Assembly: GCF_007197885.1 (NCBI RefSeq)
Contig: NZ_VKKG01000004.1
Coordinates: forward strand, 310,001-374,000
Length of the DNA: 64,000 nt
Source: Tessaracoccus rhinocerotis
GTDB taxonomy: Bacteria > Actinomycetota > Actinomycetes > Propionibacteriales > Propionibacteriaceae
Reading direction: 5' to 3'
Shown: positions 2,107 through 57,489 of the stretch, in pieces
Numbering within the stretch: position 1 is the first letter of the stretch
How the letters are laid out: each line of letters opens with the position of its first letter
The notes under the pieces: generated by a model
Told to the model about the DNA's origin: nothing
Database searches by the model: none
What the model saw: the letters and a program-made list of their open reading frames with translations, nothing else
Program-made: the position numbers and the translations under genes

Positions 2107-4421
2107 CGACCGCCACCGCTTCCACCCCACGCCGTTCGGCGGGCGTCCCCGCCCGCAGCCCGTGGGACTCGCTCCGCGGTGCCGACCGGGCCCGTTGGGT
2201 GCTCGTCGACGCCCTCGGACTGCTGGTCCTGCTCGCCCTGGTGGCTGCCGTGCTGCGGTCCCTCTACCAGTCGCCCTGGCTGGCGGTCACCGTCGGCGGC
2301 TTCGGCCTCACCGGCATGGGGATCGCCCTGCTCGCCGCGTGGCGGCACTGGCGCGTCGGCCTCACCGCCGCCGCGTGCGTCGTCGCCTGGTTCTCGCTCG
2401 GCACCTTGTTCGTGATGCCGTCGGCCGGGATCGCGATGGTGGTGCCCACGCTTCGCTCCCTGCGCGGGCTGCTGCTGGCGCCGGTCACCGCCTGGCGGGA
2501 CCTCTTGACGCTGCAGTCTCCCATCGGCGAGACCGCGAACCTGTTCGCCCCCGCCGGCATCATCGCGCTGCTCGTCGGGGTCATCGGCATGGGGATCTCC
2601 CTGCGCACCCGCTTCCCCGCGCTGGCCTGGCTGCCCGCAGCCGCCGGCTACCTGGCCGCCGCCGCGCTGGGTGCCGGCGTCGTCTACCGCCCGATCCTGA
2701 TCGGCGCCGTCTTCCTCGTTGTCGTCCTGGTCTGGACGAGCTACCGCCGTGCACACCTGCGCGAGTCCCTGACCGGTCGCTCCCAGCGGATGCGGCCGGT
2801 GCGGCTGGTCCTGGCGCTCGCCACGCTGCTGGCCGCCGGGGGCCTGACCTGGCTGGCGCTGCCGGTGCTGCAGCCGGAGGCCGCCCGCACCACTCTCCGG
2901 CAGGCGGTCCAGCCGCCCATCGAGCTCGAGCAGTTCGCCTCGCCGTTGCAGGCGTTCCGCGGCAACATCACCAAGCACGAGGACACCACCTTGTTCGAGG
3001 TGAGCGGGTTGGTGCAGGGCGACATCCTGCGCGTGGCCACCATGGACTCCTACGACGGGCTCAGCTTCCGCGTCGCGACCACCTCCGACGACGCCGTGGA
3101 GAGCACCACGTTCACCCGGGTGGGGCAGTGGATCGCCGACGACACCCCGGGCACCGTCGGCCACGCCGGGGTGCGCGTGCGCGCCTATGACGGCGTGTGG
3201 GTGCCCACCGTCGGCAGGACCACCCAGATCAGCTTCACGGGGGACCGGTCAGTGGCCCTCGGGGAGAACTTCTTCTACAACCGCGGCTCGGGCACCGGCG
3301 TGACGCCGATCGGGGTGACCGAGGGCGACGCCTACTCGTTGGCGTTCATCCGCCCCGAACGCCCGAGCGACGAGCAGATCAAGGTGGCCTCGGCCGGCCG
3401 CGTCGCGCTTCCCGCGGTCGAGGGCGTTCCCGACGAACTGCGCAACCTCGCCCACGAGTGGGGCGATGGGCTCTCGTCGGCCGGCGAGCAGGCACTGGCG
3501 CTGGAGACCAACCTCGGGCTGGGCTACTTCAGCCACGGCCAGGCCGACGAGGTCCTCTCCCTCTCCGGTCACTCGGCGGCCCGGCTGCTCACCCTGATCG
3601 CCACCCCCGAGGAGATGGTCGGCGACGACGAGCAGTACGCAACGGCGATGGCCCTGATGGCCCGCGAACTGGGGATCCCCGCCCGCGTGGTCTACGGCTA
3701 CCGCGCTGGCAACTCGCCCGTCATCACCGGGGCCGACGTCGGCGCCTGGACGGAGGTCCACTTCGACGAGTACGGCTGGGTGGTGTTCGACCCGACGCCG
3801 CCACGGGACCGCACGCTCGAGGACGACGACGCGCCCCAGCCGCCGAAGCCGAGGCCTCACATCGAGAACCCGCCGCCTCCGCCGGAGGATCCCGAGCCGC
3901 CGCTGCCGGACGAGGAACTGCCCGTCGGCCAGGGCGAACCGCCCGTCCAGGAGGAGACGATCGACTGGGGGCAGATCGGCGTCTGGGTGGCGCTGACCGG
4001 CATCCCGCTGGTCACCGTCGTCGTCCCGATCGCGCTCATCGTGGGCCTCAAGCTGCGTCGTCGCTCCCGTCGCCGCAACGCCCCCGAGATGGCCAACCGG
4101 GTGGCCGGGGCCTGGTCGGAACTCGTGGACCGGGCGCGGGACCTGGGGCGCTCGCCCTCGGCCTCGGCCACCCGCTCCGAGCAGGCCCAGCAACTGGTGG
4201 AGGACTTCCCGAAGGCCGCCCGAAAGGCGGATCCGATCGGTGTCTCGACCGAGGCCGACTGGCTGGTGTTCGCCCCGGGTGAGCCAAGCGAGCAGACCGT
4301 GAGGGAGTTCTGGGAGGCCACGAAGAAGGTCGACCGGGGAATGCGCAGGTCGGTGGCGTGGCCCAGGTGGTTCGCGTCGAAGTTCTCGACGAAGTCGTTC
4401 CGGAGGTTCAGGGAGAAATGA
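2103..4421 (+). CDS. TgpA-like transglutaminase-fold membrane protein, catalytic Cys and His apparently absent
   Basis: This 772-aa protein has an N-terminal block of about six membrane helices (residues 30-275, DUF3488/TgpA-like). A large external region and a transglutaminase-core fold (residues 500-566) follow. A Pro/Glu-rich stretch, a last membrane helix (about 620-645) and a basic/soluble tail complete it. The core is easy to align (AMALMARELGIPARVVYGYR, then GWVVFDPTP). However, the position of the usual catalytic Cys is Asp509 (GDDEQYA) and the usual HAW is GAW (Gly547); only Asp563 of the triad remains. It is therefore more likely a structural or binding protein than a peptidase or transglutaminase. 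It is the third gene of the moxR-DUF58 operon. Confidence 0.85.
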   Translation: MTTATASTPRRSAGVPARSPWDSLRGADRARWVLVDALGLLVLLALVAAVLRSLYQSPWLAVTVGGFGLTGMGIALLAAWRHWRVGLTAAACVVAWFSLGTLFVMPSAGIAMVVPTLRSLRGLLLAPVTAWRDLLTLQSPIGETANLFAPAGIIALLVGVIGMGISLRTRFPALAWLPAAAGYLAAAALGAGVVYRPILIGAVFLVVVLVWTSYRRAHLRESLTGRSQRMRPVRLVLALATLLAAGGLTWLALPVLQPEAARTTLRQAVQPPIELEQFASPLQAFRGNITKHEDTTLFEVSGLVQGDILRVATMDSYDGLSFRVATTSDDAVESTTFTRVGQWIADDTPGTVGHAGVRVRAYDGVWVPTVGRTTQISFTGDRSVALGENFFYNRGSGTGVTPIGVTEGDAYSLAFIRPERPSDEQIKVASAGRVALPAVEGVPDELRNLAHEWGDGLSSAGEQALALETNLGLGYFSHGQADEVLSLSGHSAARLLTLIATPEEMVGDDEQYATAMALMARELGIPARVVYGYRAGNSPVITGADVGAWTEVHFDEYGWVVFDPTPPRDRTLEDDDAPQPPKPRPHIENPPPPPEDPEPPLPDEELPVGQGEPPVQEETIDWGQIGVWVALTGIPLVTVVVPIALIVGLKLRRRSRRRNAPEMANRVAGAWSELVDRARDLGRSPSASATRSEQAQQLVEDFPKAARKADPIGVSTEADWLVFAPGEPSEQTVREFWEATKKVDRGMRRSVAWPRWFASKFSTKSFRRFREK

Positions 4422-8892: not shown

Positions 8893-9036
8893 ATGTCCAG
8901 AAGTACCAAGCGTGGTGTGGCGGTAGGTCGTGGGTCAGGTACGACTGCTCCCGCGCCAGTCCTCGAACGGCTCCGGACGCGTCAACGAGTACGAGCTCTA
9001 CTCGGCCACGGGGGACTGCACCACCGCGACCTATGA
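8893..9036 (+). pseudogene. Probable original 5' end of the GH101 gene, now out of frame
   Basis: An ATG with a purine-rich ribosome site (GGGGGGACGGGG just upstream) opens a 47-codon frame beginning MSRSTKRGVAVG. This looks like the charged front of a signal peptide. The expected hydrophobic core is missing: the frame runs into arginine-rich shadow sequence and stops at 9034-9036. The GH101 frame is offset by one base and is closed upstream by TAG 8924-8926. The simplest reading is a deletion or frameshift that removed the signal peptide core and the front of the first binding domain. An assembly or consensus error is the alternative. Confidence 0.5.
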
Positions 9037-12000
9037 CAACCTCGTCGCCGAGGGAGCTTTCGGCGGCGAGGTGGTGGACCGTGCGATCGAGCGCGCCATC
9101 GTCCTCGACGAGCCAGTCACCGCGGACTGCCTGAAGATCGTCTACCTCTCCACCTGGGGCGGTCACGTGGCGGGCGAGGAGACCTCCCGCGTCGAGCGGG
9201 TCGGCTCCCTCGCAGAACTCAACGTGGACACCGCCGTCTGGGAAGACGGCGAACCCACTGACCCGACCGCGCCGCAGCCCATCGAGGTGGTCGTTCCCGA
9301 GGGTGCCGTCGAGATCACCGACGGGGACCTCACGGTCCGGCTCCACCCCGACTTCCCACAGGTGGTCGACTACCGCCTGGGCGGCCAGCAGCTCGCCGGC
9401 AGGCTCGGCGACGCCCTCACGAGCGTGCTGGTCAACGAGACGCAGCAGCCCGTCGCCGTGGCCGCGCCCGTGGTTGACGGCAGCACCGCCACCTACGCCA
9501 TCACCCTGCCAGGCATCGAGGGCGCGTCGTTCGACGCCGTCGTGTCCGTCGCCGACGGCACACTGCGCTTCGAACTGGCCAACCTGGTCAACCCGGGCGA
9601 CGTCATCCAGCGCGTCCGCATCCCCAACCACGACCTCGTGACGGTTGGCTCTGCCGATGCCGCCGCGCAGATCACGGGAGCCAGGATGGGCGTCGACCGC
9701 AACGCGAACTACGACGACTTCCGCAACGTCGCCTCCACCCCGGCGGGCAACGTCCAGGGAGCCTGGCTGGCGTTCGCCAACACCGCCACCCTCGCGGCCG
9801 CCTTCGACACCAACGCCGTCGAGGACAACCGCGGTCCGCAGTCCACCTCGAGCCGCGTCGCCGGCGACAACAACCGCATGCAGCACCAGATCCGCCTCGC
9901 CGACGACGACGTCACCAAGTACGGCTCCGTCTGGGCAGGCACCTGGACGTGGCGGTCCCAGGCGGTGCAGGACTACACCGACGTCATCGGCAATGAGGAC
10001 AACCCCTTCGTCGAGGTCAAGCTGACGGAGGACCGCAACGCCGACTCCGTCGTCGACTGGCAGGACGCCGCGATCGCCGTGCGTGACATCATCACGTTCG
10101 GCAACGGCGCCGACGAGGTGGCAAACGAGGTCATCGCCCGCATCCCGTTCAACATCGTCTCCCAGGCCACGCACCCGTTCCTGCGCACCCTGGACGACAC
10201 CAAGCGGATCTCCCTGGCCACCGACAACCTGGGCCAGAAGGCGCTGCTCAAGGGCTACCAGGCCGAGGGCCACGACTCTGCGCACCCGGACTACGCGGGT
10301 CACTACAACACCCGCGCGGGTGGTCTCGAGGACCTGGAGACGCTGGCGCAGGAGAGCGTCGACTTCAACACCAGCTACGGCGTCCACGTCAACGTCACCG
10401 AGTCCTACTCGGAGGCGGACAACTTCTCCGAGGAACTGCTGAACATGCCCCCGCAGAAGGCGTGGGGCTGGATGAACCAGTCGTACTACATCAACTCCCA
10501 GAAGGACCTCGCCACCGGCGCGGTGCTGGACCGCTTCCAGGAATTCTGGGACGAGCGCCCGGAGAACCTGAACTGGCTGTACCTGGACGTCTACTACCCC
10601 GACGGCTGGGAGAGCCAGCGCTTCGGCCAGGAACTTCAGGAGCAGGGTTGGGTCGTCGGCTCCGAGTGGTCCGACAAGCTCGAACTGGGCAGCGTCTGGT
10701 CCCACTGGTCCCAGGACGAGAACTACGGAGGCGCCAGCAACAAGGGCATCGAGTCCGACGTGATCCGCTTCGTCTACAACTCCAAGCGCGACACCTGGAA
10801 CCCGGACCCCCTGCTCGGCAACTCCAACGTCGTCGAGTTCGAGGGCTGGGCCGGCAACCTCAACTACAACCGGTTCATCGACAACGTGTGGGAGCGCAAC
10901 CTACCCGTCAAGTTCCTGCAGCAGTCCGACATCGTCAAGTGGGGCGAGGGCCGAATCGACTTCGAGAACGGTGCCAGCGTCACCTCTGAAGTGACCGACA
11001 TCAATGGCACCACCATTCCGACGGACCGCACCATCACCTTCGACGGCGCAACCGTCTTCGAGGACGGTGCCTACCTGCTGCCCTGGAGCGACGGTGGCGA
11101 GGAACGCCTCTACCACTACAACATCGGGGGCGGTTCCACGCAGTGGCAGCTGACCGATGCCTGGGCCTCCCAGTCCTCGCTGACGCTGTTCGAGCTGACT
11201 GACACCGGTCGCGAAGAGGTCGGCGAGGTCGTACCCGTCGACGGTGTCATCACCCTCGAGGCCACCGATGGCATCGCCTACGTGCTGTACCCGACCTCCG
11301 CCGTCCCGGCGCCTGTCGAGCCCAACTGGGGTGAGGCCTCCGGCATCGAGGATCCGGGATTCTTCTCGGGCACACTGGACGCCTACGAGGCCACCGGCGA
11401 CGTCAGCGTCGTCAAGACCGACCGAGGCAACTTCCAGGCCGAGATCGGCGCGGGAGAGGGCTCACTCTCCCAGGACCTCGAGCTCGCTGCGGGCACGTAC
11501 TCCGCCTGGGCCTGGGTGGAGGTCGCGGAGGGCCGGCAGCGTGAGGTCACCGTCTCTGCGACGGGCGACGTCACTCCCGTCGGCTACGCCGAGGGGGAGG
11601 CAGGCTCCGTGGTGAACTCGATCACGGCGTCGACCGTGAAGAACGCCACCGCCTCCGACGAGAAGCGCGATCTGGGATTCCAGCGACTCCGGGTCACCTT
11701 CACCACCGACGGCGGGGGCGTGACACTCGGCGTCGCGGCTGGCCAGGGCGACGCAGTCGTCTCGGTGGATGACCTGCGGGTCGTCGAGTTCATCCCGGCC
11801 GTGGACGGCGAGCCGACCGACGAGACGGTTTTCTTCGAGGACTTCGAGAACATCGACACCGGGTACTTCCCGTTCGTCACCGGTGCCACCAACCGTGGCG
11901 GCGATGCGCGCACCCAGCTGGCCGAACTGCACGCACCGTACTCCCAGAAGGGCTGGTGGGGTGTGGCGATCGACAACACGGTGAAGGAGGGCGAGAAGCT

Positions 12001-13762
12001 CAACGACAACGTGTTGGACGGCGAGTGGTCGCTGATGGCCAACAACGAGAACTCCGGCGAGATCCTCAAGACCGCGCCCGGGACGATCCCGTTCGAGGCC
12101 GGCCGTCAGTACCGGATCAGCTTCGACTACCAGACCACCTACGCGGACCAGTACCGCGTGCGGGTCGGACACGACGTCGTGCGCGCAGGCGGCAACACCA
12201 CCGTCGACGCCATCTCCGACGTCCTGGGCCAGCAGCGCGACACCGCCACCTGGAGTGCGGAATTCTCCGTGGCCGAGTGCGGTGTCCCGTTCATCGCCGT
12301 CGACAAGCTGCCCGGGCCGAACACGCAGCACAACATGACCATCGACAACATGCGTGTCGAGGACATCGGTGCCTCCGAGTCGGGCGCCTGCTTCTCCGGT
12401 GCGATCTCGGCCCCCGCCTCGGCGCAGGCCGGCGGTGACATCACAGTCACCACCACGCTGAGCGCCTACAACGACGAGACGACAGATGTCGCCCACGAGT
12501 TGGACCTGCCCGCGGGTTGGACCGCGGAGGTCGTCACGGCCGGGGAGACCACCCTCGCCTTCGGTGAGTCCTCGGTCCAGACATGGCAGGTCAGCGTGCC
12601 CGAGGACGCCGAGGACGCCACGATCTCCTTCACCGGCTCCGCGACCGTCGACGGTCAGCGTGCGGTGTTCACCGGGTCTGCCCAGGTGGCGGTCGTCGGA
12701 CCCCTGCCCGAGGGTGAGGTCTACCTCTCCGACATGCAGGACCGCGTCGTCGGTACCCCGAGCAACGGGTGGGGACCGGTGGAGTGGGACACGGGCAACG
12801 GAGAGAGTGGCGCTGGTGATGGCCCCGCGCTGAGCATCGGCGGGGTGGTCTACCCGAAGGGCATCGGTGTCCACGCGAACTCCACGATCGACTTCGACCT
12901 GAAGGGCGAGTGCACCGTGTTCCAGGCGTTCGTGGGTGTCAATGACGTCCAGACCCGGGGAACGGTCCAGTTCGCCGTGTACGGCGACGGTTCGCTGATC
13001 CACCAGACCGACGTGCTGACTGGTGCCGACGACCCGGTGGCCCTCGAGCTGGACATCACCGGGGTGGCCACGCTCTCGCTGCGGGTCACCGACGGTGGCG
13101 ACGGTGTCGGCAACGACCACGGGGACTGGGCGATGGCCCGGGTCACCTGTGGCGATGGTGGCGAACCTACGGATGAGCCCACGGTGGATCCGACCCCGAC
13201 GGGTGAGCCCACGGTGGATCCCACCCCGACTGACAAGCCGACCGAGCCGACGCAGAAGCCGACTGACAAGCCGACCGAGCCGACGCAGAAGCCGACTGAC
13301 AAGCCGACCGAGCCGACGCAGAAGCCGACCGACAAGCCCTCGAACGGCACGCCGTACATCTACACCACCCCCGGCTACCACGAGTACAACGGACGTCGTT
13401 GGCACACCACCTGCGTGCCATACTCGTCGACCTTCCGCTGCAACACGGAGATCTGGGCCACCCAGGTGACCCAGGACGACGGCCGGTTCGTGCAGACCAA
13501 CGGCTGGTACTTCAACAACCTGACGTACCTGCCGATCGCACGCTCGGCGTGGTCCTCCAACCCGCTCGGGTACACCACCACGTGGACCTCCGACGAGGGC
13601 CGCAACTGGTACACCGAGTGCGACACTGCCACCACCGGTGGCAACGGGTGCCGCAGCTACATCCGTGCCTCGGTCATCCAGGGCACGGAGCGACCGGGTG
13701 GTGGCCACACCTACGAGTGGGTCACCAAGTGGGTGTTCAACAACATGGTCCTGTTCAGCTGA
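8930..13762 (+). CDS. Endo-alpha-N-acetylgalactosaminidase, GH101 (N-terminus missing or damaged)
   Basis: The predicted 1610-aa protein belongs to GH101, which releases the Gal-beta-1,3-GalNAc core 1 disaccharide from mucin-type O-glycans. Visible order: tail of an F5/8-type (discoidin) domain (to about 95); beta-sandwich (about 115-340); catalytic barrel (about 400-660) with Asp553 in LYLDVYY as likely nucleophile and Glu579 in VVGSEW as acid/base; beta domains. An alpha-galactosidase NEW3-like domain (about 1155-1255), NPCBM domain (about 1264-1406), Pro/Thr-rich repeats and a 136-aa four-Cys C-terminal domain shared with the GH59 enzyme at 52273 follow. GTG 8930 is only the first in-frame start after a stop. 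It gives no signal peptide, so the enzyme as read could not be secreted. Confidence 0.88.
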   Translation: MGQVRLLPRQSSNGSGRVNEYELYSATGDCTTATYDNLVAEGAFGGEVVDRAIERAIVLDEPVTADCLKIVYLSTWGGHVAGEETSRVERVGSLAELNVDTAVWEDGEPTDPTAPQPIEVVVPEGAVEITDGDLTVRLHPDFPQVVDYRLGGQQLAGRLGDALTSVLVNETQQPVAVAAPVVDGSTATYAITLPGIEGASFDAVVSVADGTLRFELANLVNPGDVIQRVRIPNHDLVTVGSADAAAQITGARMGVDRNANYDDFRNVASTPAGNVQGAWLAFANTATLAAAFDTNAVEDNRGPQSTSSRVAGDNNRMQHQIRLADDDVTKYGSVWAGTWTWRSQAVQDYTDVIGNEDNPFVEVKLTEDRNADSVVDWQDAAIAVRDIITFGNGADEVANEVIARIPFNIVSQATHPFLRTLDDTKRISLATDNLGQKALLKGYQAEGHDSAHPDYAGHYNTRAGGLEDLETLAQESVDFNTSYGVHVNVTESYSEADNFSEELLNMPPQKAWGWMNQSYYINSQKDLATGAVLDRFQEFWDERPENLNWLYLDVYYPDGWESQRFGQELQEQGWVVGSEWSDKLELGSVWSHWSQDENYGGASNKGIESDVIRFVYNSKRDTWNPDPLLGNSNVVEFEGWAGNLNYNRFIDNVWERNLPVKFLQQSDIVKWGEGRIDFENGASVTSEVTDINGTTIPTDRTITFDGATVFEDGAYLLPWSDGGEERLYHYNIGGGSTQWQLTDAWASQSSLTLFELTDTGREEVGEVVPVDGVITLEATDGIAYVLYPTSAVPAPVEPNWGEASGIEDPGFFSGTLDAYEATGDVSVVKTDRGNFQAEIGAGEGSLSQDLELAAGTYSAWAWVEVAEGRQREVTVSATGDVTPVGYAEGEAGSVVNSITASTVKNATASDEKRDLGFQRLRVTFTTDGGGVTLGVAAGQGDAVVSVDDLRVVEFIPAVDGEPTDETVFFEDFENIDTGYFPFVTGATNRGGDARTQLAELHAPYSQKGWWGVAIDNTVKEGEKLNDNVLDGEWSLMANNENSGEILKTAPGTIPFEAGRQYRISFDYQTTYADQYRVRVGHDVVRAGGNTTVDAISDVLGQQRDTATWSAEFSVAECGVPFIAVDKLPGPNTQHNMTIDNMRVEDIGASESGACFSGAISAPASAQAGGDITVTTTLSAYNDETTDVAHELDLPAGWTAEVVTAGETTLAFGESSVQTWQVSVPEDAEDATISFTGSATVDGQRAVFTGSAQVAVVGPLPEGEVYLSDMQDRVVGTPSNGWGPVEWDTGNGESGAGDGPALSIGGVVYPKGIGVHANSTIDFDLKGECTVFQAFVGVNDVQTRGTVQFAVYGDGSLIHQTDVLTGADDPVALELDITGVATLSLRVTDGGDGVGNDHGDWAMARVTCGDGGEPTDEPTVDPTPTGEPTVDPTPTDKPTEPTQKPTDKPTEPTQKPTDKPTEPTQKPTDKPSNGTPYIYTTPGYHEYNGRRWHTTCVPYSSTFRCNTEIWATQVTQDDGRFVQTNGWYFNNLTYLPIARSAWSSNPLGYTTTWTSDEGRNWYTECDTATTGGNGCRSYIRASVIQGTERPGGGHTYEWVTKWVFNNMVLFS
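13226..13336 (+). repeat. 33-nt tandem repeat coding the GH101 Pro/Thr linker
   Basis: Three identical 33-nt units (13226-13258, 13259-13291, 13292-13324) and a 12-nt partial copy encode repeats of PTDKPTEPTQK. The linker separates the NPCBM domain from the C-terminal domain. Identical copies imply recent slippage or selection for length variation. Confidence 0.9.
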
Positions 13763-43055: not shown

Positions 43056-44345
43056 ATGAAGCAAGGTAGAGCACTCGCGGCCCTGGCGGTCGTGTCCGCC
43101 CTCGCCGTGACGGGTTGCGCCCGGGCGGGCGAGGACCCCAACGGCGACGGTGGGGACGGACCCGCCCAGGTCACCCTCTGGACCCACTCCGCCGGCAACC
43201 CGGCCGAGCTCGAGGTCTACAACCAGATCATCTCCGACTTCAACGGCTCCCAGGACGACTACGAGGTCGTCTCCGAGTCGTTCCCGCAGGGCGCCTACAA
43301 CGACGCCATCGTCGCGGCCGCCGCCTCCGGCGACCTGCCGTGCCTGCTGGACATGGACGGCCCGATCGTCCCGAACTGGGCGTGGGCGGGCTACATCCAG
43401 CCGCTGGGGATCTCGTCGGAGATCACCGACTCCCTGCTGCCGACCGCCGTCGGCATGTGGGACGACGAGGTCTACTCCGCCGGCTACTGGGACGCCGCGC
43501 TGGCGATCTTCGCCCGGCAGTCGGTGCTCGAGGCCAACGACATCCGCATCCCCACCGTCGACGAGCCGTGGACCGGTGAGGAGTTCGACGCCGCTCTGCG
43601 CACGCTGCAGGGCGCCGGCTACGAGACCGCGATCGACATCGGCGCCGAGGACGTCGGCGAGTGGTGGCCCTACGCCTACTCGCCGTTCCTGCAGAGCTTC
43701 GGTGGCGACCTGATCGACCGCGACACCTACCTCAGCGCCGACGGCGTGCTCAACGGCCCGGAGGCCGTGGCGTTCGGCGAGTGGTTCCAGGGCCTCTTCG
43801 CGGACGGGCTGGCCGGCATCGACGGCACCGTCGGCAACGAGGAGTTCAACCGCGACGAGGTGGGCCTCAGCTACACCGGCGTCTGGAACGCGCTGGGATC
43901 GATCGAGGCAGTGGGCGACGACCTGCTGATCCTGCCGCCGCCGGACTTCGGCAACGGTCCCAAGATCGGCGGCGGCTCCTGGCAGTGGGGCATCGCGGCC
44001 GACTGCTCGGGTCCCGAGCTCGACGGGGCCCGCGCCTACCTCGAGTTCTCCTTCGACGCGGAGTACATCGCGGCGTTCGCGGACAAGCAGATCGTCATCC
44101 CCGCCACGGAGGAGGCCACCGAGCTCAGCGAGTATTTCGGCGAGGACGGCCAGCTGCGCCCGTTCACGGAGCTGACCCAGTTCGCGGTGCTCCGCCCCGA
44201 GACCCCCGCCTACGCGGTCATCTCCACCACCTTCGAGCGGGCGGCCAAGGACATCATGAACGGCGCTGACGTCCAGGAGAGCCTCGACCAGGCAGTCGCG
44301 GACATCGACGCCGACATCGAGAACAACGACGGCTACGGGTTCTGA
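43056..44345 (+). CDS. Sugar ABC transporter substrate-binding lipoprotein
   Basis: This 429-aa extracytoplasmic solute-binding protein (family 1, MalE/UgpB-like) has a lipoprotein signal with lipobox AVTGC (Cys about 24). The mature region begins VTLWTHSAGNPAELEVYNQI. GAYNDAIVAAAASGDLPCLLDMDGP and a GSWQWGIAADC block follow. GGAAGGAG precedes ATG 43056. It is the first gene of a LacI-controlled operon with two permeases and a GH32-like hydrolase. No ATPase gene is in the operon, so it probably uses a shared MsiK-type ATPase encoded elsewhere. Confidence 0.92.
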   Translation: MKQGRALAALAVVSALAVTGCARAGEDPNGDGGDGPAQVTLWTHSAGNPAELEVYNQIISDFNGSQDDYEVVSESFPQGAYNDAIVAAAASGDLPCLLDMDGPIVPNWAWAGYIQPLGISSEITDSLLPTAVGMWDDEVYSAGYWDAALAIFARQSVLEANDIRIPTVDEPWTGEEFDAALRTLQGAGYETAIDIGAEDVGEWWPYAYSPFLQSFGGDLIDRDTYLSADGVLNGPEAVAFGEWFQGLFADGLAGIDGTVGNEEFNRDEVGLSYTGVWNALGSIEAVGDDLLILPPPDFGNGPKIGGGSWQWGIAADCSGPELDGARAYLEFSFDAEYIAAFADKQIVIPATEEATELSEYFGEDGQLRPFTELTQFAVLRPETPAYAVISTTFERAAKDIMNGADVQESLDQAVADIDADIENNDGYGF

Positions 44346-44371
44346 GCCGCTCCACCCCTTCTGGAGGCATC

Positions 44372-45328
44372 ATGACCACCTCACTCAATGCCGGGCCGCC
44401 GTCCGCGGCCAACCCCACGGCGCCGGAACGGGCACCCGCCAAGCGGCGCCATGGCAAGCAACGGGGCCACTCCGTGGCCTACGCCATGGTGGCGCCGGCG
44501 GCCCTGCTCCTGGTGATGTTCCTGATCATCCCGGTGCTGCTGGCCTTCGGGCTGTCTTTCACCAACGCCCGCCTGATCTCGCCCAACCCGCCAAGGTTCG
44601 TCGGGCTGGACAACTTCATCCGCGCGTTCGTGGGGGACCCGACCTTCATCCGGTCCCTCATCAACACCTTCCTGTTCGCCGTCGTCGTCGTGCCCGTCCA
44701 GGCGGGCCTCGGGCTGGTGATGGCCGTCCTCGTGAACCAGAAGCTGCGGGGGACCACGTTCTTCCGGATCGTGTTCTTCATCCCCGTGGTGACGTCCATC
44801 GTCGTCGTGTCCATCCTGTGGCGCTTCATGTACCAGCCCGACGGCATCATCAACTCCTTCATCGACACCATCACCTTCGGTTCGTGGGAGGGGATCGCGT
44901 GGCTGAGCAACCCGTCGACCGCGCTGCCGGCAATCATCGTCCTTTCCATCTGGCAGGCGGTGGGCTTCCACATGATCATCTGGCTCTCGGGCCTGCAGAC
45001 CATCCCGGAGGAGCTCTACGAGGCCGCCCGGATGGACGGGGCAGGGCCGTGGCAGCAGTTCAAGAACGTCACGTGGCCGGGCCTGCGTCCGACCATGGTG
45101 TTCATCCTCGTGACGATCACCATCGCCGCGCTGGGGCTGTTCGTGCAGATCGACGTCATGACCCAGGGCGGCCCGCGCGACTCGACGACGACGCTGGTCT
45201 TCCACGCCGTGCGGCGAGGGTACCGGGAGCAGCAGACCGGCTACGGCGCCGCCATCTCGCTGATCTTCTTCGTGCTGGTGCTGGCGATCGCACTCATCCA
45301 GCGCTTCCTGACAAGGGACAAGGACTGA
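44372..45328 (+). CDS. Sugar ABC transporter permease (MalF/UgpA type)
   Basis: This 318-aa permease has six helices. The EAA loop is EELYEAARMDGAGPWQQFKNVTWP (about residue 213), which docks the ATPase. A positively charged N-terminus precedes helix 1. It begins 26 nt after the binding-protein gene and ends 1 nt before the next permease start. Confidence 0.94.
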   Translation: MTTSLNAGPPSAANPTAPERAPAKRRHGKQRGHSVAYAMVAPAALLLVMFLIIPVLLAFGLSFTNARLISPNPPRFVGLDNFIRAFVGDPTFIRSLINTFLFAVVVVPVQAGLGLVMAVLVNQKLRGTTFFRIVFFIPVVTSIVVVSILWRFMYQPDGIINSFIDTITFGSWEGIAWLSNPSTALPAIIVLSIWQAVGFHMIIWLSGLQTIPEELYEAARMDGAGPWQQFKNVTWPGLRPTMVFILVTITIAALGLFVQIDVMTQGGPRDSTTTLVFHAVRRGYREQQTGYGAAISLIFFVLVLAIALIQRFLTRDKD

Positions 45329-45329
45329 C

Positions 45330-46229
45330 ATGACCGACACCACCATCACCATGTCTCGCACCCGCAAGAGCCGCGCCAAGCTGCTCTACATCCCGATGAT
45401 CGTCCTCGCGCTCGTGTTCATGTTCCCGCTGGTGTTCATGTTCGTCTCGAGCCTCAAGCCTGACGCCCAGATCCTGGCCGACGTCGACTCCTTCCGGGCC
45501 TTCCTGCCCGTGGGTGACATCTCGCTGGCCAACTACACCGGCGTCTTCGAACGCGTCCCCTTCGCCCGGTTCCTGCTGAACTCGATCGTGGTGACGGTGC
45601 TCATCGTCGCTCTGGGGCTCGTGGTCAACTCGCTCGCCGGCTTCGCCCTCTCGCGGATGGAGTGGCGGGGCCGCAAGATCCTGCTGACCGTCATCATCGC
45701 CACCCTGATCGTGCCGTTCGAGACCATCGCGGTGCCGATGGTCTACTGGGTCAGCCTGCTGCCCACGCTCCTCGTCGAGGACGGGATGGTGAAGTACGAC
45801 ATCGGGATGCTCAACACCTACGAGGTGATGATCCTCCCCTTCATCGCGAACGCCTTCTCCATCTTCTTGTTCACGCAGTACTTCTCCACCATCCCCACCT
45901 CGCTGGACGAGGCGGCCCGGATCGACGGCGCCGGCTGGTTCTCGATCTACGCGCGCATCATCGCGCCACTGTCCGGACCGGCCTTCGCCACCGTCGCCAT
46001 CCTCACGTTCCTGCCCGCCTGGAACTCCTACCTGTGGCCGCTGATGGTGGTGCAGCAGGAGTCCCTCCGGCCGGTGATGGTGGGCATGCAGTACTTCTTC
46101 CAGCTCAACACCGCCTGGGGTGAGGTCATGGCCTACACCTCACTGATCACACTGCCAGTTCTGCTGATGTTCCTCGTGTTCCAGCGAGCGTTCGTCAGCT
46201 CCATCGCCGCCAGCGGCGTGAAGGGATAG
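45330..46229 (+). CDS. Sugar ABC transporter permease (MalG/UgpE type)
   Basis: This 299-aa permease has six helices with EAA loop TSLDEAARIDGAGWFSIYARII (about residue 190). It forms the heterodimer with the preceding permease. The gap to the next gene is only 4 nt, so transport and hydrolysis of the sugar are co-expressed. Confidence 0.94.
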   Translation: MTDTTITMSRTRKSRAKLLYIPMIVLALVFMFPLVFMFVSSLKPDAQILADVDSFRAFLPVGDISLANYTGVFERVPFARFLLNSIVVTVLIVALGLVVNSLAGFALSRMEWRGRKILLTVIIATLIVPFETIAVPMVYWVSLLPTLLVEDGMVKYDIGMLNTYEVMILPFIANAFSIFLFTQYFSTIPTSLDEAARIDGAGWFSIYARIIAPLSGPAFATVAILTFLPAWNSYLWPLMVVQQESLRPVMVGMQYFFQLNTAWGEVMAYTSLITLPVLLMFLVFQRAFVSSIAASGVKG

Positions 46230-46233
46230 ACAC

Positions 46234-47190
46234 ATGCTGAGACTTCCTGACCACTGGGTGTGGGACAGCTGGCCCGCAAGGGCCGACGACGGGAGCCACC
46301 ACCTGTTCTTCCTGCGCGCCTCCCGGGCGCTGCTCGACCCCGACAGGCGACACCTGCGCGCCTCCATCGGCCACGCCCGCTCCGCCGACCTGACGCACTG
46401 GGAACTCCTGCCCGACGCGCTGGTGGCCGCCGACTCACCGGCCTGGGACGACCGCGCCACCTGGACCGGTTCCGTGGTGCGGGGCGACGACGGCGTGTGG
46501 CGCCTGTTCTACACCGGGGTCTCCTGGGCCGACGACGGGCTGGTCCAGCGCGTCGGCGTGGCCCACTCCGAGGACATGGTGTCCTGGCACCGTCGCCCCG
46601 AGTCCCAGGTGGTCGAGGCCGATCCCCGCTGGTACGAGAAGCTCGCCAGCGGCGACTGGTTCGACGAGGCGTGGCGCGACCCGTGGGTGTTCCGCGGCGA
46701 GGACGGGCAGTGGCACATGCTCCTCACCGCCCGTGCCGCGGTCGGTGATCCGGCCACCCGGTCGGTGATCGGGCACGCCACCAGCCCCGACCTCGAGCAC
46801 TGGGAGGTGCAGCCGGCGCTGTCCGAGCCCGCGGGCTGGGGGCAGATGGAGGTGCCGCAGACCGTCGTGGTGGACGGCCAACCGTTCCTGCTGTTCTGCT
46901 GCTGGGACTCCCACCAGGGCGAGCAGCGGCAGCAGCAGGCCACGGGCGGCATGTGGTTCGCGCCCGGGGACTCGCTGCTGGGGCCGTGGGACTTCTCCGC
47001 CGCGGGCACCTTCGACCACCCCAGCCTGTACGCGGCCCGGCTGGTGGAGGCGACGCCTGGCCAGTGGGCGCTGGTCGGGTTCTCCGACAGGGTCGACGGC
47101 GAGTTCCGGGGCGAGATCCTGGATCCGCTGCCCGTGGTCCGGGTGGGCCGGCGGCTGCAGTTCGCGCAGGATCCGCCGGGCCGGGCGTGA
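46234..47190 (+). CDS. GH32-like (GH-J clan) beta-propeller glycoside hydrolase
   Basis: This 318-aa protein has a five-bladed beta-propeller pattern. Candidate catalytic residues are Asp11 in HWVWDSW (where classical GH32 has WMNDPNG), Asp149 in WRDPWVF (the RDP motif) and Glu206 in WGQMEVPQ (in place of EC). No signal peptide is seen, so it acts in the cytosol on imported sugar. Fructosides are the family's usual substrates, but the altered first motif makes GH43/GH68-like alternatives possible. It is the last gene of the LacI-controlled operon. Confidence 0.75.
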   Translation: MLRLPDHWVWDSWPARADDGSHHLFFLRASRALLDPDRRHLRASIGHARSADLTHWELLPDALVAADSPAWDDRATWTGSVVRGDDGVWRLFYTGVSWADDGLVQRVGVAHSEDMVSWHRRPESQVVEADPRWYEKLASGDWFDEAWRDPWVFRGEDGQWHMLLTARAAVGDPATRSVIGHATSPDLEHWEVQPALSEPAGWGQMEVPQTVVVDGQPFLLFCCWDSHQGEQRQQQATGGMWFAPGDSLLGPWDFSAAGTFDHPSLYAARLVEATPGQWALVGFSDRVDGEFRGEILDPLPVVRVGRRLQFAQDPPGRA

Positions 47191-47204
47191 GACGGAAATG
47201 ACGC

Positions 47205-47238
47205 GAGCCCCCGACCTGCGCGCGCAGGTCGGGGGCTC
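47205..47238. terminator. Bidirectional terminator between the GH32-like gene and amt
   Basis: A perfect 15-bp stem (GAGCCCCCGACCTGC at 47205-47219, complement at 47224-47238) with loop GCGC. It lies between convergent genes. Confidence 0.88.
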
Positions 47239-47272
47239 TGTCCTGTCCCTCGCGGGACCGGGTAGGTGGTGG

Positions 47273-52236: not shown

Positions 52237-52272
52237 TTGCGGGACATGCTCACTCAACGAGGAGGAGAACCC

Positions 52273-55200
52273 GTGCAACGCGCGCGATCCGCATCCCTGT
52301 TAACCGTCGGACTGGCCACGACCGCACTTGTTGCGTCGATGTGGACCGCAACCGGCATCGCATCCGCCGAACTCCCCACCGCCGTCCGGGCCGCCGCCTA
52401 CCTCGGCGGCGACGAACTGGTGGAGACCTCCCTGCCCGCCACCCTCTCCGACGGTGAGTCGGAGCACCCGGTGACCTGGACCCTCGACGCCGACGCGTTC
52501 GACGAGGCCTGGGCCACCGTCGAGGTGCCCGGCACCGTCGACGGCCAGGCCGTCACCGCCCACGTCGAGGTGATCCCGCCCGCTGAGTACCCGCTGGTCT
52601 ACTTCGTCGACGCGGGCCACGGCGGCGACTCGCAGACCGCGGCCTGGTCCACCCTCGAGACCAACTCGCACGCGTACAACGCCGTGAGCAGCCTCGCCAC
52701 CGACCTGCACAACACCAAGCCGGACCAGCGGTTCGTCGACGGTTCCACCGACTGGGGTTTCGCCTACGGCACGGGCAGCTACAACTACAAGCTGACGGTC
52801 GAGGGCGGCGACCCGAACGCCTCGAACCTGGCCGCACTCGGCGAGTACGACAAGTTCAGCCTCGGCGCACGCACCAACGAGACGTTCATCGGCCACAAGC
52901 TCGCGCTCGATCCCGGCACCTACACGCTCAGCTCCGGATTCCGCGAGTTCTACACCGGCAACCAGTCCAGGTCCCGTGGCATCACACCGACGGTCTCCTG
53001 GAACCTCGACGGCGTCGAGCAGTCCCAGGCGATGGCCGCGGTCGCGGTGGAGACGCCCGCCAACCAGCCCGGCGCCACGGTCACTGCCCACGACGTCTTC
53101 ACCATCCCCGAGGGGGCCACCGACGTCGCGCTGACCTACCGCCGCTCCTCGGGCGAGAACCCGATGTTCAGCTGGTTCGCCGTCGCCGCCGGTGATGCCC
53201 GCGACGCGCTCGCGGGCGAGCCCGAACCACCGGTGGTGCCAACCACCGAGGTCACGATCGACGCCGCCGACATCGCGGCCGACAACGTCAACGGCCTGAC
53301 CTTCAAGGGCTTCGGCGTCCTGAGTGCCAACTCCACCAGCTCGGTGCTGATGGATTACAAGGCCCAGCACCCGGAGAAGTACGACGAGCTGCTGCAGACC
53401 CTCTTCGGCGGCGAGAACCCGGTCATGAACCACGTCAAGATCGAGATGGGCAACGACCGCAACAACTCCACCGGCTCCGACCCGGCCACCATGCGCCGCG
53501 CCGACGAGGAGGCAAACGTCCTGCGCCACCCCGGCTTCCAGCTGGCGGCCGACGCGAGCAAGTACAACCCCGACCTGGTGGTCAGCATCCTGCGCTGGGT
53601 CGCACCGGCCTGGGTGACCACCGAGGACGACACCTACCTCTGGTACAAGAACACCATCCTGGCCGCCCACCGCGAGTACGGCTTCATGGTGGACTACCTG
53701 AACCCCGGCGTGAACGAGCACAGCGCCGACCTCAACATCACCAAGCAGTGGTACGACCGGATCCAGGGCGACGAGACCGGCTACGTCAGCGACGACCCGA
53801 GCCTCGCGGGCTTCCGCGACGGCGAGGCCGAGCTGTTCCGCCAGATCAAGCTCGTCATCTCCGACGAGGTGGGCACCGGCACCTTCGGACCCGCCATGGT
53901 CACCGACGCGGACCTCCGCGCCAAGGTCGACGTCGCAGCGTTCCACTACAACACCAACGACGACTCCCAGAACAGCTTCAAGCGGCTCGCCACCGAGTTC
54001 GACAAGCAGGTCTGGAACTCCGAGGCGCAGGCCACGTTCAGCAACTCGGCCTTCCGCCCCAACAACAACGTCGCCGACCCGACGGTGCCCGGCACCGGGA
54101 TCGGCGGCACCGGCAGCTCGCTGGAGATGGCCAACACCATCGTCAAGGGCTTCGTGAACTCCCACCGCACCCACGTCATCTACCAGCCGGCGATCGGCTC
54201 GTTCTACGAGGGCGGCCAGTACTCCTTCAAGGAACTGGTCAGCGCCCGTGACCCGTGGTCGGGCTGGCTGCACTACGACGCCGGACTTGCCGTGCTGCAG
54301 CACTTCAGCAGCTTCGCGGTCACCGGCTGGGAGAACGCCGACAACACCGCCGGCGTCTGGCGCGCGGTGCCCGAGGCCAGCCGCACCACCGCGACCGGGA
54401 CCAACCCGATCGTCGGCCGCAACGGCGAGCCCAACTACATGACGCTGGCCGCGCCCGACGCGTCGGACTTCTCCACCGTCATCGTCAACGACTCCGAGAA
54501 CCCGCGAAGCTACGTCATCACACCCGTCGGATTCGGGTTCGGCGCCGAGCAGCAGCTCTCGGTGTGGGAGACCCGCGCCGCCGACGAGGGCCACGCCTTC
54601 GACGCCAACTACAAGCGGTTCGTCGGCGACGTCGCGGCCGAGGCCGGCGCCTACACGGTGCTCGTCCAGCCGTTCTCGATCGTCACCGTCACCTCCCTCG
54701 ACGCCACGACGGACGACGGCTGGACCACCCCCCTGCCCGTCCCCGGTGAGCGCACAGTCCTCGAGTCCGACGCCGACGCCGGCGTGCTGTGGGCCGACGA
54801 CTTCAACTACGAGGGCAAGACCGTCCCCGTCCTCGCCGACGGCGGCGGCCTCGGCACCGCGACGGAGTCGTTCATCGACTCCCGTGGCGGCGTCACCGGA
54901 TTCACCCCGCTGTACAACTGGGACCGGCAGGGCTCGTTCGAGGGCTACGAGGCCTCCGACGGGCAGTTCGTCCTGCGCCAGCAGCTCGACCGGCAGACGA
55001 CCGGGGTCCCGGGTGCCTGGAACGGCTCGGACCCGATCACCGGCATCGGTGACCGCCGCTGGTCGAACTACGAGGCCAGCATCGACGTGCGGTTCGAGCG
55101 CTCCGAGGTGGCCGGCAACTACGGCGCCCTCGGCGTCCGCGGCCGCGGCACCAGCGGGGCGGGCGGCATCGACACCACCCCGTACGCCCTGCGCCTGAAC

Positions 55201-57489
55201 GAGGACGGCTCCTGGCAGTTCCTGCGCCGCAACGCCGTCGTCGGCAGCGGCATCGTCGCCGACGACGACTGGGACTCCTCGACGTGGCACCGCCTCGCGG
55301 TCCGCGCGGCCGGCGCCGACGTCAGCGCGTCGATCGACGGCGTCGGGGTGTTCTCCTTCACCGACACCAACCCCTACCTCGCCGGATTCGTCGACGTGGC
55401 CAGTGGCTTCCACAACACCCAGTTCGACAACCTGCGGGTGGAGCACGTCGACGGCTACCTGCCGTACTACGGCGAGCACCTCGACAACATGGAGATGCAC
55501 GACCTCGCCGAGGTCCCGGCCGCCAAGCTGGTCTACGACGGCCAGTGGCGCCACGCCAACGGCGGCGGGATGCACGAGTTCCAGCGCTCCCGCTCCACCA
55601 GCCTCGCCACCGGCGCCGGCGTCAGCCACACGTTCACCGGCTCGGGCATCGACCTGATCGCCGGCAGCGGCTACGGCAGCGCAACCTTCGACGTCCACGT
55701 CGACGGCGAACTGCTGGTGCAGAACGCGGCCACCCAGCCCACTGACTGGTTCCAGGCGAGCTACTCGCTGCGTGGCCTGGAGTGGGGCGAGCACACTGTC
55801 CGGTTCGAGGTCACCTCGGGCGCGCTCGCCATCGACGCCGTGGGCGTGATGAGCGCGCCGGCCATCGAGGCCGCCTCGGCGGACGGCATCGTCGCGCCGC
55901 TGGCCGACGCGAAGGCGCTCGAGCGCACCGACGACTTCACCGACGAGAGCTGGGCGCTGCTGCAGCGGCTCATCTCCGACGCGGAGGCCGCCGTGGCGGA
56001 TCCCGCCGCGTACGGGCTCGACGGTGAGGGCGCGCGGCAGATCGTGGACCGGCTGGTCGCCGCGTCCAACCCGAAGCTGGCCGAGGTGGTCAGCGTCGAG
56101 ACGCCGCACCTGGCCACCTGGCAGGGCGACGCGCCGACACTGCCCGAGACGCTGACTGCCACCCTGTCCGACGGCTCCACCATGGAGCTGGAGATCGACT
56201 GGGACCAGACGGCGGCAAGTGACTTCGGCACGGCCTGGTCGGTGGTCGCCGTCGCGGGTGCCCATGGTCCGGTGGAGGTCTCGGCGAGGGTTGAGGTGGT
56301 GCCCGAGGGAACCGTCGCCTTCGCCGACGTGCAGGCCTCCAGCGCCGGTCAGCTGGGGTATGACTCCCCGGCCTGGGTCGCCATCGACGAGCTGGTGGGC
56401 GGCCTGGTCAACGACCTGCCCGACCAGCAGCTGACCTCCGGGACCACCTGGGGCCACGCTGCGCGCAACGCGGCCGGGACGTCGGACATCCAGCGCAAGG
56501 GCGTCGTCGCCGGTCCGTACGACAAGACGACCACCACCGGCATGTACACGGCCAACCAGGTCGGGGCGCAGCTCGACTACACCCTGGACCTCGAGGCCGG
56601 CTCGTACACGATCGTTGGGGCCAGTCACTCCTGGTGGCCGGACTACGCCCGCACCGCGAACGTTTCGGTGCTGCACGACGGCGGGTCGACCCCGGCGGGG
56701 ACCGTCACGCTGAACACGGCGAACCCGACGGAGCTGCTCAGCCAGGACATCGTGCTGGCCGAGACCGGCCAGGTGACCCTGCGCCTGACGGCGACCACCA
56801 ACGAGTCGCCGATGCTGTCGTGGGTGGCCGCGGTGCGGACCCCGACCACTGAGCCGACGCCGGATCCGAGCGTGGAGCCGTCGGAGGATCCGAGCGTGGA
56901 GCCGTCGGAGGATCCGAGCGTGGAGCCGTCGGAGGATCCGAGCGTGGAGCCATCGGCGACCCCGAGTCAGCCGTCGGCGACCCCGAGTCAGGAGCCTTCG
57001 GCGACCCCGAGCCAGGGCCCCTCGCCGACCCCGACGGTCACCGTGACCCGGACGCCGAACCCGCACCCGGGTGACATCTACACCATCCCGGGCTTCCACA
57101 ACTACAACGGGCGGCTGTGGCACACGCAGTGCGAGCCGTACTCACAGACCATCCGCTGTCGCACGGAGATCTGGGCGACGACGGTGAAGGTCGAGTCGGG
57201 ACGGTTCGTGCAGTCCAACGGCTGGGTGTTCAACAACCTCACCTACCTGCCGTTCATGACGCGGTCACAGTGGGCGAGCAACCCCCTGGGCCACGCGGGT
57301 GAGTGGACTGCCGCTGATGGTCGACGCTGGCGCACCGAGTGCGACACCGCGGCCACCGGGCGCAACGGTTGCCGCAGCTACACCATGACGAGCCTCGTCG
57401 TGGGCAGCCAGAACTCCGCCGGGGTCTGGTCGTACCGGGTCACGCAGGACTGGGTGTTCAACAACCTGGTTCGCTTCCGCACCAACTGA
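52273..57489 (+). CDS. Giant secreted GH59 (galactocerebrosidase-like) enzyme
   Basis: This 1738-aa enzyme starts at GTG 52273 behind GAGGAGGAG, giving a Sec signal (1-32, ending ASA). Domains: Ig-like Big_4 (about 35-95); unrecognised module A (about 110-311); GH59 barrel (about 340-810) with Glu482 in NPGVNEHSAD (acid/base) and Glu584 in VWNSEAQ (nucleophile). Next are a LamG-like lectin (about 838-1056), a discoidin-like beta domain (1085-1193) and a FIVAR-like helical segment (1213-1266). A second Big_4 (about 1280-1340), module B homologous to A (about 1347-1526), a Pro/Ser linker and a four-Cys C-terminal domain (1603-1738) shared with the GH101 protein follow. GH59 enzymes release beta-galactose from galactosylceramide or other beta-galactosides. 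No LPXTG sortase signal is present. Confidence 0.87.
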   Translation: MQRARSASLLTVGLATTALVASMWTATGIASAELPTAVRAAAYLGGDELVETSLPATLSDGESEHPVTWTLDADAFDEAWATVEVPGTVDGQAVTAHVEVIPPAEYPLVYFVDAGHGGDSQTAAWSTLETNSHAYNAVSSLATDLHNTKPDQRFVDGSTDWGFAYGTGSYNYKLTVEGGDPNASNLAALGEYDKFSLGARTNETFIGHKLALDPGTYTLSSGFREFYTGNQSRSRGITPTVSWNLDGVEQSQAMAAVAVETPANQPGATVTAHDVFTIPEGATDVALTYRRSSGENPMFSWFAVAAGDARDALAGEPEPPVVPTTEVTIDAADIAADNVNGLTFKGFGVLSANSTSSVLMDYKAQHPEKYDELLQTLFGGENPVMNHVKIEMGNDRNNSTGSDPATMRRADEEANVLRHPGFQLAADASKYNPDLVVSILRWVAPAWVTTEDDTYLWYKNTILAAHREYGFMVDYLNPGVNEHSADLNITKQWYDRIQGDETGYVSDDPSLAGFRDGEAELFRQIKLVISDEVGTGTFGPAMVTDADLRAKVDVAAFHYNTNDDSQNSFKRLATEFDKQVWNSEAQATFSNSAFRPNNNVADPTVPGTGIGGTGSSLEMANTIVKGFVNSHRTHVIYQPAIGSFYEGGQYSFKELVSARDPWSGWLHYDAGLAVLQHFSSFAVTGWENADNTAGVWRAVPEASRTTATGTNPIVGRNGEPNYMTLAAPDASDFSTVIVNDSENPRSYVITPVGFGFGAEQQLSVWETRAADEGHAFDANYKRFVGDVAAEAGAYTVLVQPFSIVTVTSLDATTDDGWTTPLPVPGERTVLESDADAGVLWADDFNYEGKTVPVLADGGGLGTATESFIDSRGGVTGFTPLYNWDRQGSFEGYEASDGQFVLRQQLDRQTTGVPGAWNGSDPITGIGDRRWSNYEASIDVRFERSEVAGNYGALGVRGRGTSGAGGIDTTPYALRLNEDGSWQFLRRNAVVGSGIVADDDWDSSTWHRLAVRAAGADVSASIDGVGVFSFTDTNPYLAGFVDVASGFHNTQFDNLRVEHVDGYLPYYGEHLDNMEMHDLAEVPAAKLVYDGQWRHANGGGMHEFQRSRSTSLATGAGVSHTFTGSGIDLIAGSGYGSATFDVHVDGELLVQNAATQPTDWFQASYSLRGLEWGEHTVRFEVTSGALAIDAVGVMSAPAIEAASADGIVAPLADAKALERTDDFTDESWALLQRLISDAEAAVADPAAYGLDGEGARQIVDRLVAASNPKLAEVVSVETPHLATWQGDAPTLPETLTATLSDGSTMELEIDWDQTAASDFGTAWSVVAVAGAHGPVEVSARVEVVPEGTVAFADVQASSAGQLGYDSPAWVAIDELVGGLVNDLPDQQLTSGTTWGHAARNAAGTSDIQRKGVVAGPYDKTTTTGMYTANQVGAQLDYTLDLEAGSYTIVGASHSWWPDYARTANVSVLHDGGSTPAGTVTLNTANPTELLSQDIVLAETGQVTLRLTATTNESPMLSWVAAVRTPTTEPTPDPSVEPSEDPSVEPSEDPSVEPSEDPSVEPSATPSQPSATPSQEPSATPSQGPSPTPTVTVTRTPNPHPGDIYTIPGFHNYNGRLWHTQCEPYSQTIRCRTEIWATTVKVESGRFVQSNGWVFNNLTYLPFMTRSQWASNPLGHAGEWTAADGRRWRTECDTAATGRNGCRSYTMTSLVVGSQNSAGVWSYRVTQDWVFNNLVRFRTN
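56863..56958 (+). repeat. 24-nt tandem repeat coding the GH59 Pro/Ser/Glu linker
   Basis: Three identical 24-nt units (from 56863, 56887, 56911) and a fourth diverging copy encode DPSVEPSE. SATPSQ repeats follow. The linker precedes the C-terminal domain. Confidence 0.9.

Follow-up and report, generated by a model that had tools for sequence, protein, structure and literature searches.

The window, by which we mean the whole analysed stretch of 64,000 nucleotides, contains two very large enzymes, a GH101 protein and a GH59 protein, with similar C-terminal ends, and the question raised by this locus is what the shared end does. The homology of the two ends, proposed in an earlier note, was confirmed by BLASTP with 80/133 identities (60%, E 9e-60). 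The ranges given there, 13355-13759 and 57079-57486, translate as claimed, and in both a stop codon comes next. The first range is homologous to the end of the GH59 protein but starts slightly too early, as 13355-13360 is the end of a linker and the domain proper begins at 13361. The domain proper comprises 13361-13756 in the GH101 protein and 57079-57477 in the GH59 protein. The GH101 and GH59 assignments were borne out by Pfam, which also placed an NPCBM and accessory domains on the former enzyme and a lectin domain of GH59 enzymes on the latter; neither C-terminus had a match at the level of the cut-offs. The features are as follows.

8930..13762, + strand: ORF of the GH101 endo-alpha-N-acetylgalactosaminidase (ORF, translation, Pfam).
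13148..13360, + strand: Pro/Thr-rich linker of the GH101 protein, following the NPCBM domain, for which the Pfam match stops at residue 1406 (translation, Pfam).
13361..13534, + strand: first repeat of the four-Cys domain, GH101 protein (translation, BLASTP, half-vs-half comparison, Cys conservation).
13535..13756, + strand: second repeat of the four-Cys domain, GH101 protein, followed by one residue and the stop (translation, half-vs-half comparison, conservation).
52237..57489, + strand: ORF of the GH59 family protein, with a signal-peptide-like N-terminus (ORF, translation, Pfam).
56839..57078, + strand: Pro/Ser/Glu-rich linker of the GH59 protein (translation, by eye).
57079..57252, + strand: first repeat of the four-Cys domain, GH59 protein (translation, BLASTP, half-vs-half comparison, conservation).
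57253..57477, + strand: second repeat of the four-Cys domain, GH59 protein, followed by three residues and the stop (translation, half-vs-half comparison, conservation).

A signal peptide was not found by our heuristic in the GH101 ORF 8930-13762. Its N-terminus looks incomplete, the other frames just upstream show no obvious continuation by eye, and the ORF may be 5'-truncated or frame-broken. Between the two giants, at 43056-48439, there are sugar ABC transporter genes (a binding protein and two permeases) together with a GH32/43-like protein, a content which suggests a glycan-use region.

The shared end had been described as one domain with four cysteines in matching places. The cysteines were confirmed in 58 copies from the host genome, where C18, C27 and C88 never vary and C98 is kept in at least 90%, but the domain is itself a tandem duplication, built of two repeats of approximately 60 amino acids with two Cys each. 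When the halves were compared as profiles, hhalign gave a probability of 98.8 and an E-value of 6e-17, the latter referring to this single comparison. The consensus of the first repeat is roughly PGxHxVNGRxWxTxCEPYSxTxRCxTxIWAT...GWxFNNLTY, and that of the second roughly GxWTAxDGRxWRTECDTAxTGRNGCRSY...WVFNNIVRF. Trp, Tyr and Asn are likewise conserved in the 58 copies, and by eye D-V, D-L or D-I and then the first Tyr often precede the domain. Since the repeats are a duplication, the cysteines would pair within each of them, with one predicted disulfide per repeat.

The domain had been called undescribed, and no significant match appeared in Pfam, NCBIfam or PDB sequence searches. For the 58 host copies, the best Pfam E-value was 0.0048 (Thaumatin, one copy), while NCBIfam gave no match on either window domain and whole-domain profiles gave none in the PDB. 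In a further PDB search the thaumatin-like 1z3q had an E-value of 1.2. Homology to thaumatin was thus a weak lead, and it was dropped after hhalign against the whole thaumatin domain of one thaumatin-like protein, the only one that 246 genomes of the phylum yielded, returned a probability of 0.3. No confident match to an existing Pfam or carbohydrate-binding family emerged; the Pfam CBM models matched neither the window domains nor the 58 copies. SLH, CWB2, WxL, LysM, SH3b and LGFP were absent among the 13 Pfam families listed at E up to 1 for the 58 copies, and from the window domains. There was no match to the domain in an anti-phage library, and no paper on it by title or abstract among open-licence PMC papers.

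The two window domains belong to a large set. Searching the host genome (3.55 Mb in 49 contigs) with the domain gave 68 matches, and a HMMER rebuild on the stretches around these, with overlaps removed, left 69 copies, spread over 67 ORFs; full length is reached by 58 of the copies. A near-complete copy is present in 60 ORFs. The C-terminal location proposed earlier holds for 41 of the 60, in which the stop follows the domain after a few residues at most, but 19 were classed as N-terminal, and in 17 the domain stands, by eye, truly directly behind a signal-peptide-like start. Also classed as N-terminal were C46:260873-261637, in which the domain follows a linker and which looks like a frame-broken C-terminal case, and L036, with an M23 peptidase before the domain and a low-complexity tail after it. 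According to a crude heuristic, 48 of the 60 ORFs have a signal-peptide-like start (30/41 C-terminal, 18/19 N-terminal), and those failing it include ORFs that look 5'-incomplete, such as the GH101 ORF of the window. As claimed before for the two giants, the C-terminal copies are devoid of LPxTG and are followed by 1-3 residues and a stop; the combination of LPxTG, hydrophobic span and basic tail was not found behind them. More than one copy was present in two ORFs, L044:2393-3964 with two full copies and L047:1915-2739 with one partial and one full, and seven further ORFs have partial copies only. Broken or partial copies at L052:2919-3296, L056:3537-5638, L057:3362-3583 and L035:2814-4067 suggest decay or assembly frame errors. 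On host contig C12, at about 149-190 kb, large carriers are clustered (L061, L048, L032), GH43 and GH127 included, and three carriers of this run have a shortened domain of 105-109 aa.

Pfam scans of the carriers covered 62 of the 67 ORFs; nine of the 62 had no match, and some matches of the others were below family cut-offs. The glycosidases with a C-terminal domain were GH10 (two), GH20 (two), GH30, GH35, GH43 (five), GH53, GH59, GH101, GH127, a pullulanase and GHL10, and the remaining C-terminal carriers were a subtilase, three CAP proteins, a 5'-nucleotidase, Exo_endo_phos, two Metallophos proteins, a GDSL esterase, DUF4185 and a VWA/PKD protein. N-terminal copies were found on two L,D-transpeptidases (YkuD), NlpC/P60, RlpA-type, M14 and M15_4 proteins, as well as on two sugar dehydrogenases and on LRR, fn3, C5-epimerase and beta-helix proteins. 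Peptidoglycan enzymes are represented by the two YkuD proteins, NlpC/P60, RlpA-type, M23 and M15_4. A few short carriers have no other domain recognised by Pfam, e.g., L047:1915-2739, and no protein with the domain inside a catalytic fold was seen among the 62 scanned ORFs (L071 was outside the scan). The carrier range is so broad that it indicates a shared location, not a shared substrate. This bears on the earlier suggestion of glycan binding, if taken as a carbohydrate-binding module bringing each enzyme to its own external substrate. Many carriers are indeed glycoside hydrolases, and the conserved Trp, Tyr and Asn would suit such a function, but the subtilase, 5'-nucleotidase, Exo_endo_phos and peptidoglycan-enzyme carriers have no common substrate, and several of the glycosidases come with domains of the CBM4/9, CBM6, CBM9, F5/8 or ricin type in any case. 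Substrate binding is therefore disfavoured, and we regard it as quite improbable.

When one domain served as the query, 14 of 60 relatives, counting the own genome, were positive, all of the same genus, and none of 24 genomes from other families of the order. The profile search found the domain in 15 of 198 genomes and one of 29 genera of the family. Among 396 genomes of the phylum, the half-repeat profile matched the own genome and, weakly, one outside the genus, where the match was a short frame overlapping other ORFs and was judged spurious by eye. A scan of one genome per species, for 84,980 species, gave 307 relatives, of which the best 80 (74 loci) were from Tessaracoccus, uncultured Arachnia, or MAGs labelled Propionibacteriaceae or Propionibacterium; T. 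bendigoensis and T. antarcticus are among them. To judge from these relatives, the genus of the host is Tessaracoccus, which GTDB merges with Arachnia. Of the 74 best matches outside the host genome, a selection that favours the C-terminal type, 73 have their stop at most a few residues past the domain. The previous description of the domain as a module of secreted actinobacterial enzymes is too wide as to taxon, the domain being present in one genus only among the genomes searched. Viral contigs contained 75 stretches with the pattern, none of which was confirmed, and no phage or plasmid record had the domain.

Within the genus, 15 of 39 genomes were positive, 14 of them with about a dozen to 68 copies (at least 21 in G068) and G019 with a single copy. 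The 24 genomes without a copy were assigned by the profile search in 20 cases and by the single-domain query in G001, G006, G007 and G018, and some of the 39 genomes are incomplete. Such a mostly genome-wide pattern of keeping or losing the domain is what one would predict for copies that all rely on the same ligand. G019 with its single copy is an exception to all-or-none, and so is G022, which has approximately a dozen copies yet LPxTG on its 5'-nucleotidase.

We compared homologues of three carriers with regard to their ends. The 5'-nucleotidase had matches in 35 of the 39 genus genomes; 30 loci were read, and 29 were placed in a tree, one per genome. L228 was left out of the tree due to a frame change, the frame behind the break also ending in LPSTGN. 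The domain is at the end of 11 of the 29, every one in a genome with at least 16 copies, while 16 have a tail-less LPxTG-like end (LPxTG in 14, PPxTG in L208 and L215), e.g., KPGLPSTGN-stop, and two have neither tag but a His/Lys/Pro tail. The tail-less ends belong to L206, L208-L211, L215, L216, L218-L225 and L227, and a hydrophobic span with basic tail was not seen by eye when all frames of the following 180 bases were read. Genomes lacking the domain account for 15 of the 16, the remaining one, L211, being that of G022. For the three end states the tree of 29 rows requires 5 changes versus a shuffled mean of 10.7, with 0/200 shufflings as low, which asks only whether the end states cluster; the starred branches force at least three changes for the domain. 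The sisters G011 (domain) and G028 (PPxTG) differ, although joined on a 98% branch. The end of the 5'-nucleotidase therefore follows the domain content of its genome, with G022 as the exception.

NlpC/P60 had matches in 38 of 39 genus genomes, and the best locus per genome was read in 30. The domain stands in front in 12, all in domain-positive genomes; the 18 loci without it are in 16 negative genomes and in G019 and G022. Where legible by eye, these 18 have a coiled-coil-like front, or an Ig-like one in L199. Several positive genomes, including the own one, also have a second, longer NlpC/P60. For the subtilase, 10 of 30 loci have the domain, all in positive genomes, six closer homologues at 52-56% identity have a short basic tail (domain-positive genomes hold two of the six), and a tail-less LPxTG or PPxTG is confined to eight loci at 32-35% identity. 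The subtilase was not counted as a second case of exchange, as its domain-less loci, both the basic-tailed and the more distant LPxTG-like ones, are probably other paralogues.

A tail-less LPxTG, with neither a membrane span nor a basic tail, is a frequent C-terminus of secreted proteins in the genus. As a DNA pattern, PGLPxTGx-stop was found in 32 of the 39 genus genomes, with 165 matches in total versus 2 for the reversed control, and in 49 of 198 genomes and 7 of 29 genera of the family. Two published studies touch on LPXTG ends: the adhesin DsA1 of Cutibacterium acnes is described with an LPXTG lacking membrane span and charged tail (PMC5527093), and proteins with a C-terminal LPXTG, nucleotidases included, are mentioned in a survey of propionibacterial genomes (PMC3848858). 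An anti-correlation between the domain and tail-less LPxTG was considered and set aside, the means (2.3 in domain-positive genomes versus 5.4) differing in the expected direction but with p 0.07. The tail-less LPxTG is only a putative anchor, so that its exchange with the domain supports an attachment function indirectly.

The same exchange invites another explanation, namely that the domain is a C-terminal sorting signal, read by an enzyme that removes it or links it covalently, like LPxTG or the C-terminal domain of type IX secretion. The domain takes the place of an LPxTG-like end in one enzyme family, most near-complete copies in the host and nearly all in the biased set from other genomes are C-terminal, and sortases are present in 39/39 genus genomes. 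Against it, a C-terminal signal that is cleaved off could have no effect in the 17 ORFs with the domain directly behind the signal-peptide-like start, a double repeat of 133 aa with its conserved Cys resembles a folded binder more than a motif, and sortase presence does not track domain presence. Being in all 39 genomes, sortases are uninformative as co-occurring partner. A sortase gene at G000 contig C1:1029520-1029915, inside L076, lies amid three domain carriers, which may be chance given the sortases in every genome. Use at either end fits a binding module better than a cleaved signal, and we find a sorting signal unlikely.

The module also appears to have been copied locally as a unit. 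In L034, near-identical domain DNA is present in two unrelated neighbouring genes in opposite orientation, at 2950-3330 (-) and 10942-11322 (+), the carriers being an LTD/Exo_endo_phos protein and a beta-helix protein. The 381 domain bases have 2 mismatches, versus 13 in the 60 linker bases in front, and the alignment stops just past the stop codon, i.e., the edges coincide exactly with the domain. To judge from these sequences, the pair is a recent copying event. More generally, pairs with unrelated carriers at most 25 kb apart had 63.9% identity (26 pairs, the L034 pair included), versus 55.9% for the rest (1613 pairs), a difference which 0/1000 permutations reached. It is the greater likeness of nearby copies together with the L034 pair that points to local copying. 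A nearest-neighbour test between genomes, in which 48/58 copies were nearest to one of the same genome, was discarded as biased because only 74 best matches from other genomes were compared.

Unrelated carriers, use at either end, a nearly always single copy, the exchange with LPxTG-like ends and the genome-wide keeping or loss are together best explained by an attachment module. Wall attachment, the other possibility raised in the earlier note, is favoured by the carrier range, the use at either end and the exchange with a tail-less LPxTG-like end. We consider it likely from the sequences that the domain is a lineage-specific module for non-covalent attachment to the cell envelope, with one ligand shared by all copies. 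A secreted protein would carry one copy, rarely two, C-terminally or immediately after the signal peptide, in many cases with a flexible Pro-rich linker between it and the functional part. Once exported in the ordinary way, the double repeat, folded and probably disulfide-bonded, would attach without a covalent bond to some component of the producing cell's envelope and so keep the enzyme at the surface. The likeliest ligand would be a clade-specific wall glycopolymer, and the module may spread between genes via local recombination. Some observations speak against attachment. Domain-less homologues are not always LPxTG-tagged, as seen in the basic-tailed subtilases and the two 5'-nucleotidases with neither tag. 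Tail-less LPxTG is not significantly rarer in domain-positive genomes, and G019 and G022 depart from the all-or-none pattern. No relative was found in viral contigs, phages or plasmids, though phage lysins might use a wall-binding module.

More tentatively, the display could be switchable, with some 40-60 secreted proteins held on one clade-specific envelope ligand, the whole set gained or lost together while other C-termini take the place of the module, and the module moving between genes by domain-exact recombination. If attachment is right, this would be an undescribed way to fix enzymes to the actinobacterial surface, absent from the domain libraries searched. The 67 ORFs would amount to ~2% of genes, with a guessed number of about 3,300 genes, and dozens of proteins would be marked as surface-bound. 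Since the spread within the genus is nearly all-or-none, its positive and negative members lend themselves to a comparison aimed at the ligand, and the module might serve as a tag for surface display. The tail-less LPxTG replaced by the domain raises a question of its own, namely how sortases might handle such ends.

Among known systems, thaumatin-like proteins have a weak motif similarity to the four-Cys domain, which is not significant. The dockerin is a duplicated small module that terminates many enzymes. The four-Cys domain is also duplicated and at the end of many enzymes, and might accordingly be imagined to dock on a surface scaffold as a dockerin does on cohesin, but there is no dockerin match in Pfam for the 58 copies and no cohesin match in the own genome, and the domain occurs on wall enzymes and near N-termini, which makes docking highly improbable. 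The LPxTG sortase signal, in its tail-less form PGLPxTGx-stop, occupies the same C-terminal place in the 5'-nucleotidase homologues, but is a short motif and not a domain, is possibly covalent, and would be unusable at an N-terminus. WxL, SLH, CWB2, GW and similar domains are modules for non-covalent wall attachment. None of them matches the four-Cys domain in Pfam, and the latter was found in a single genus and consists of two repeats with two Cys each, but the likeness is in the mode of use, one module common to many unrelated secreted proteins, near an end and often behind linkers.
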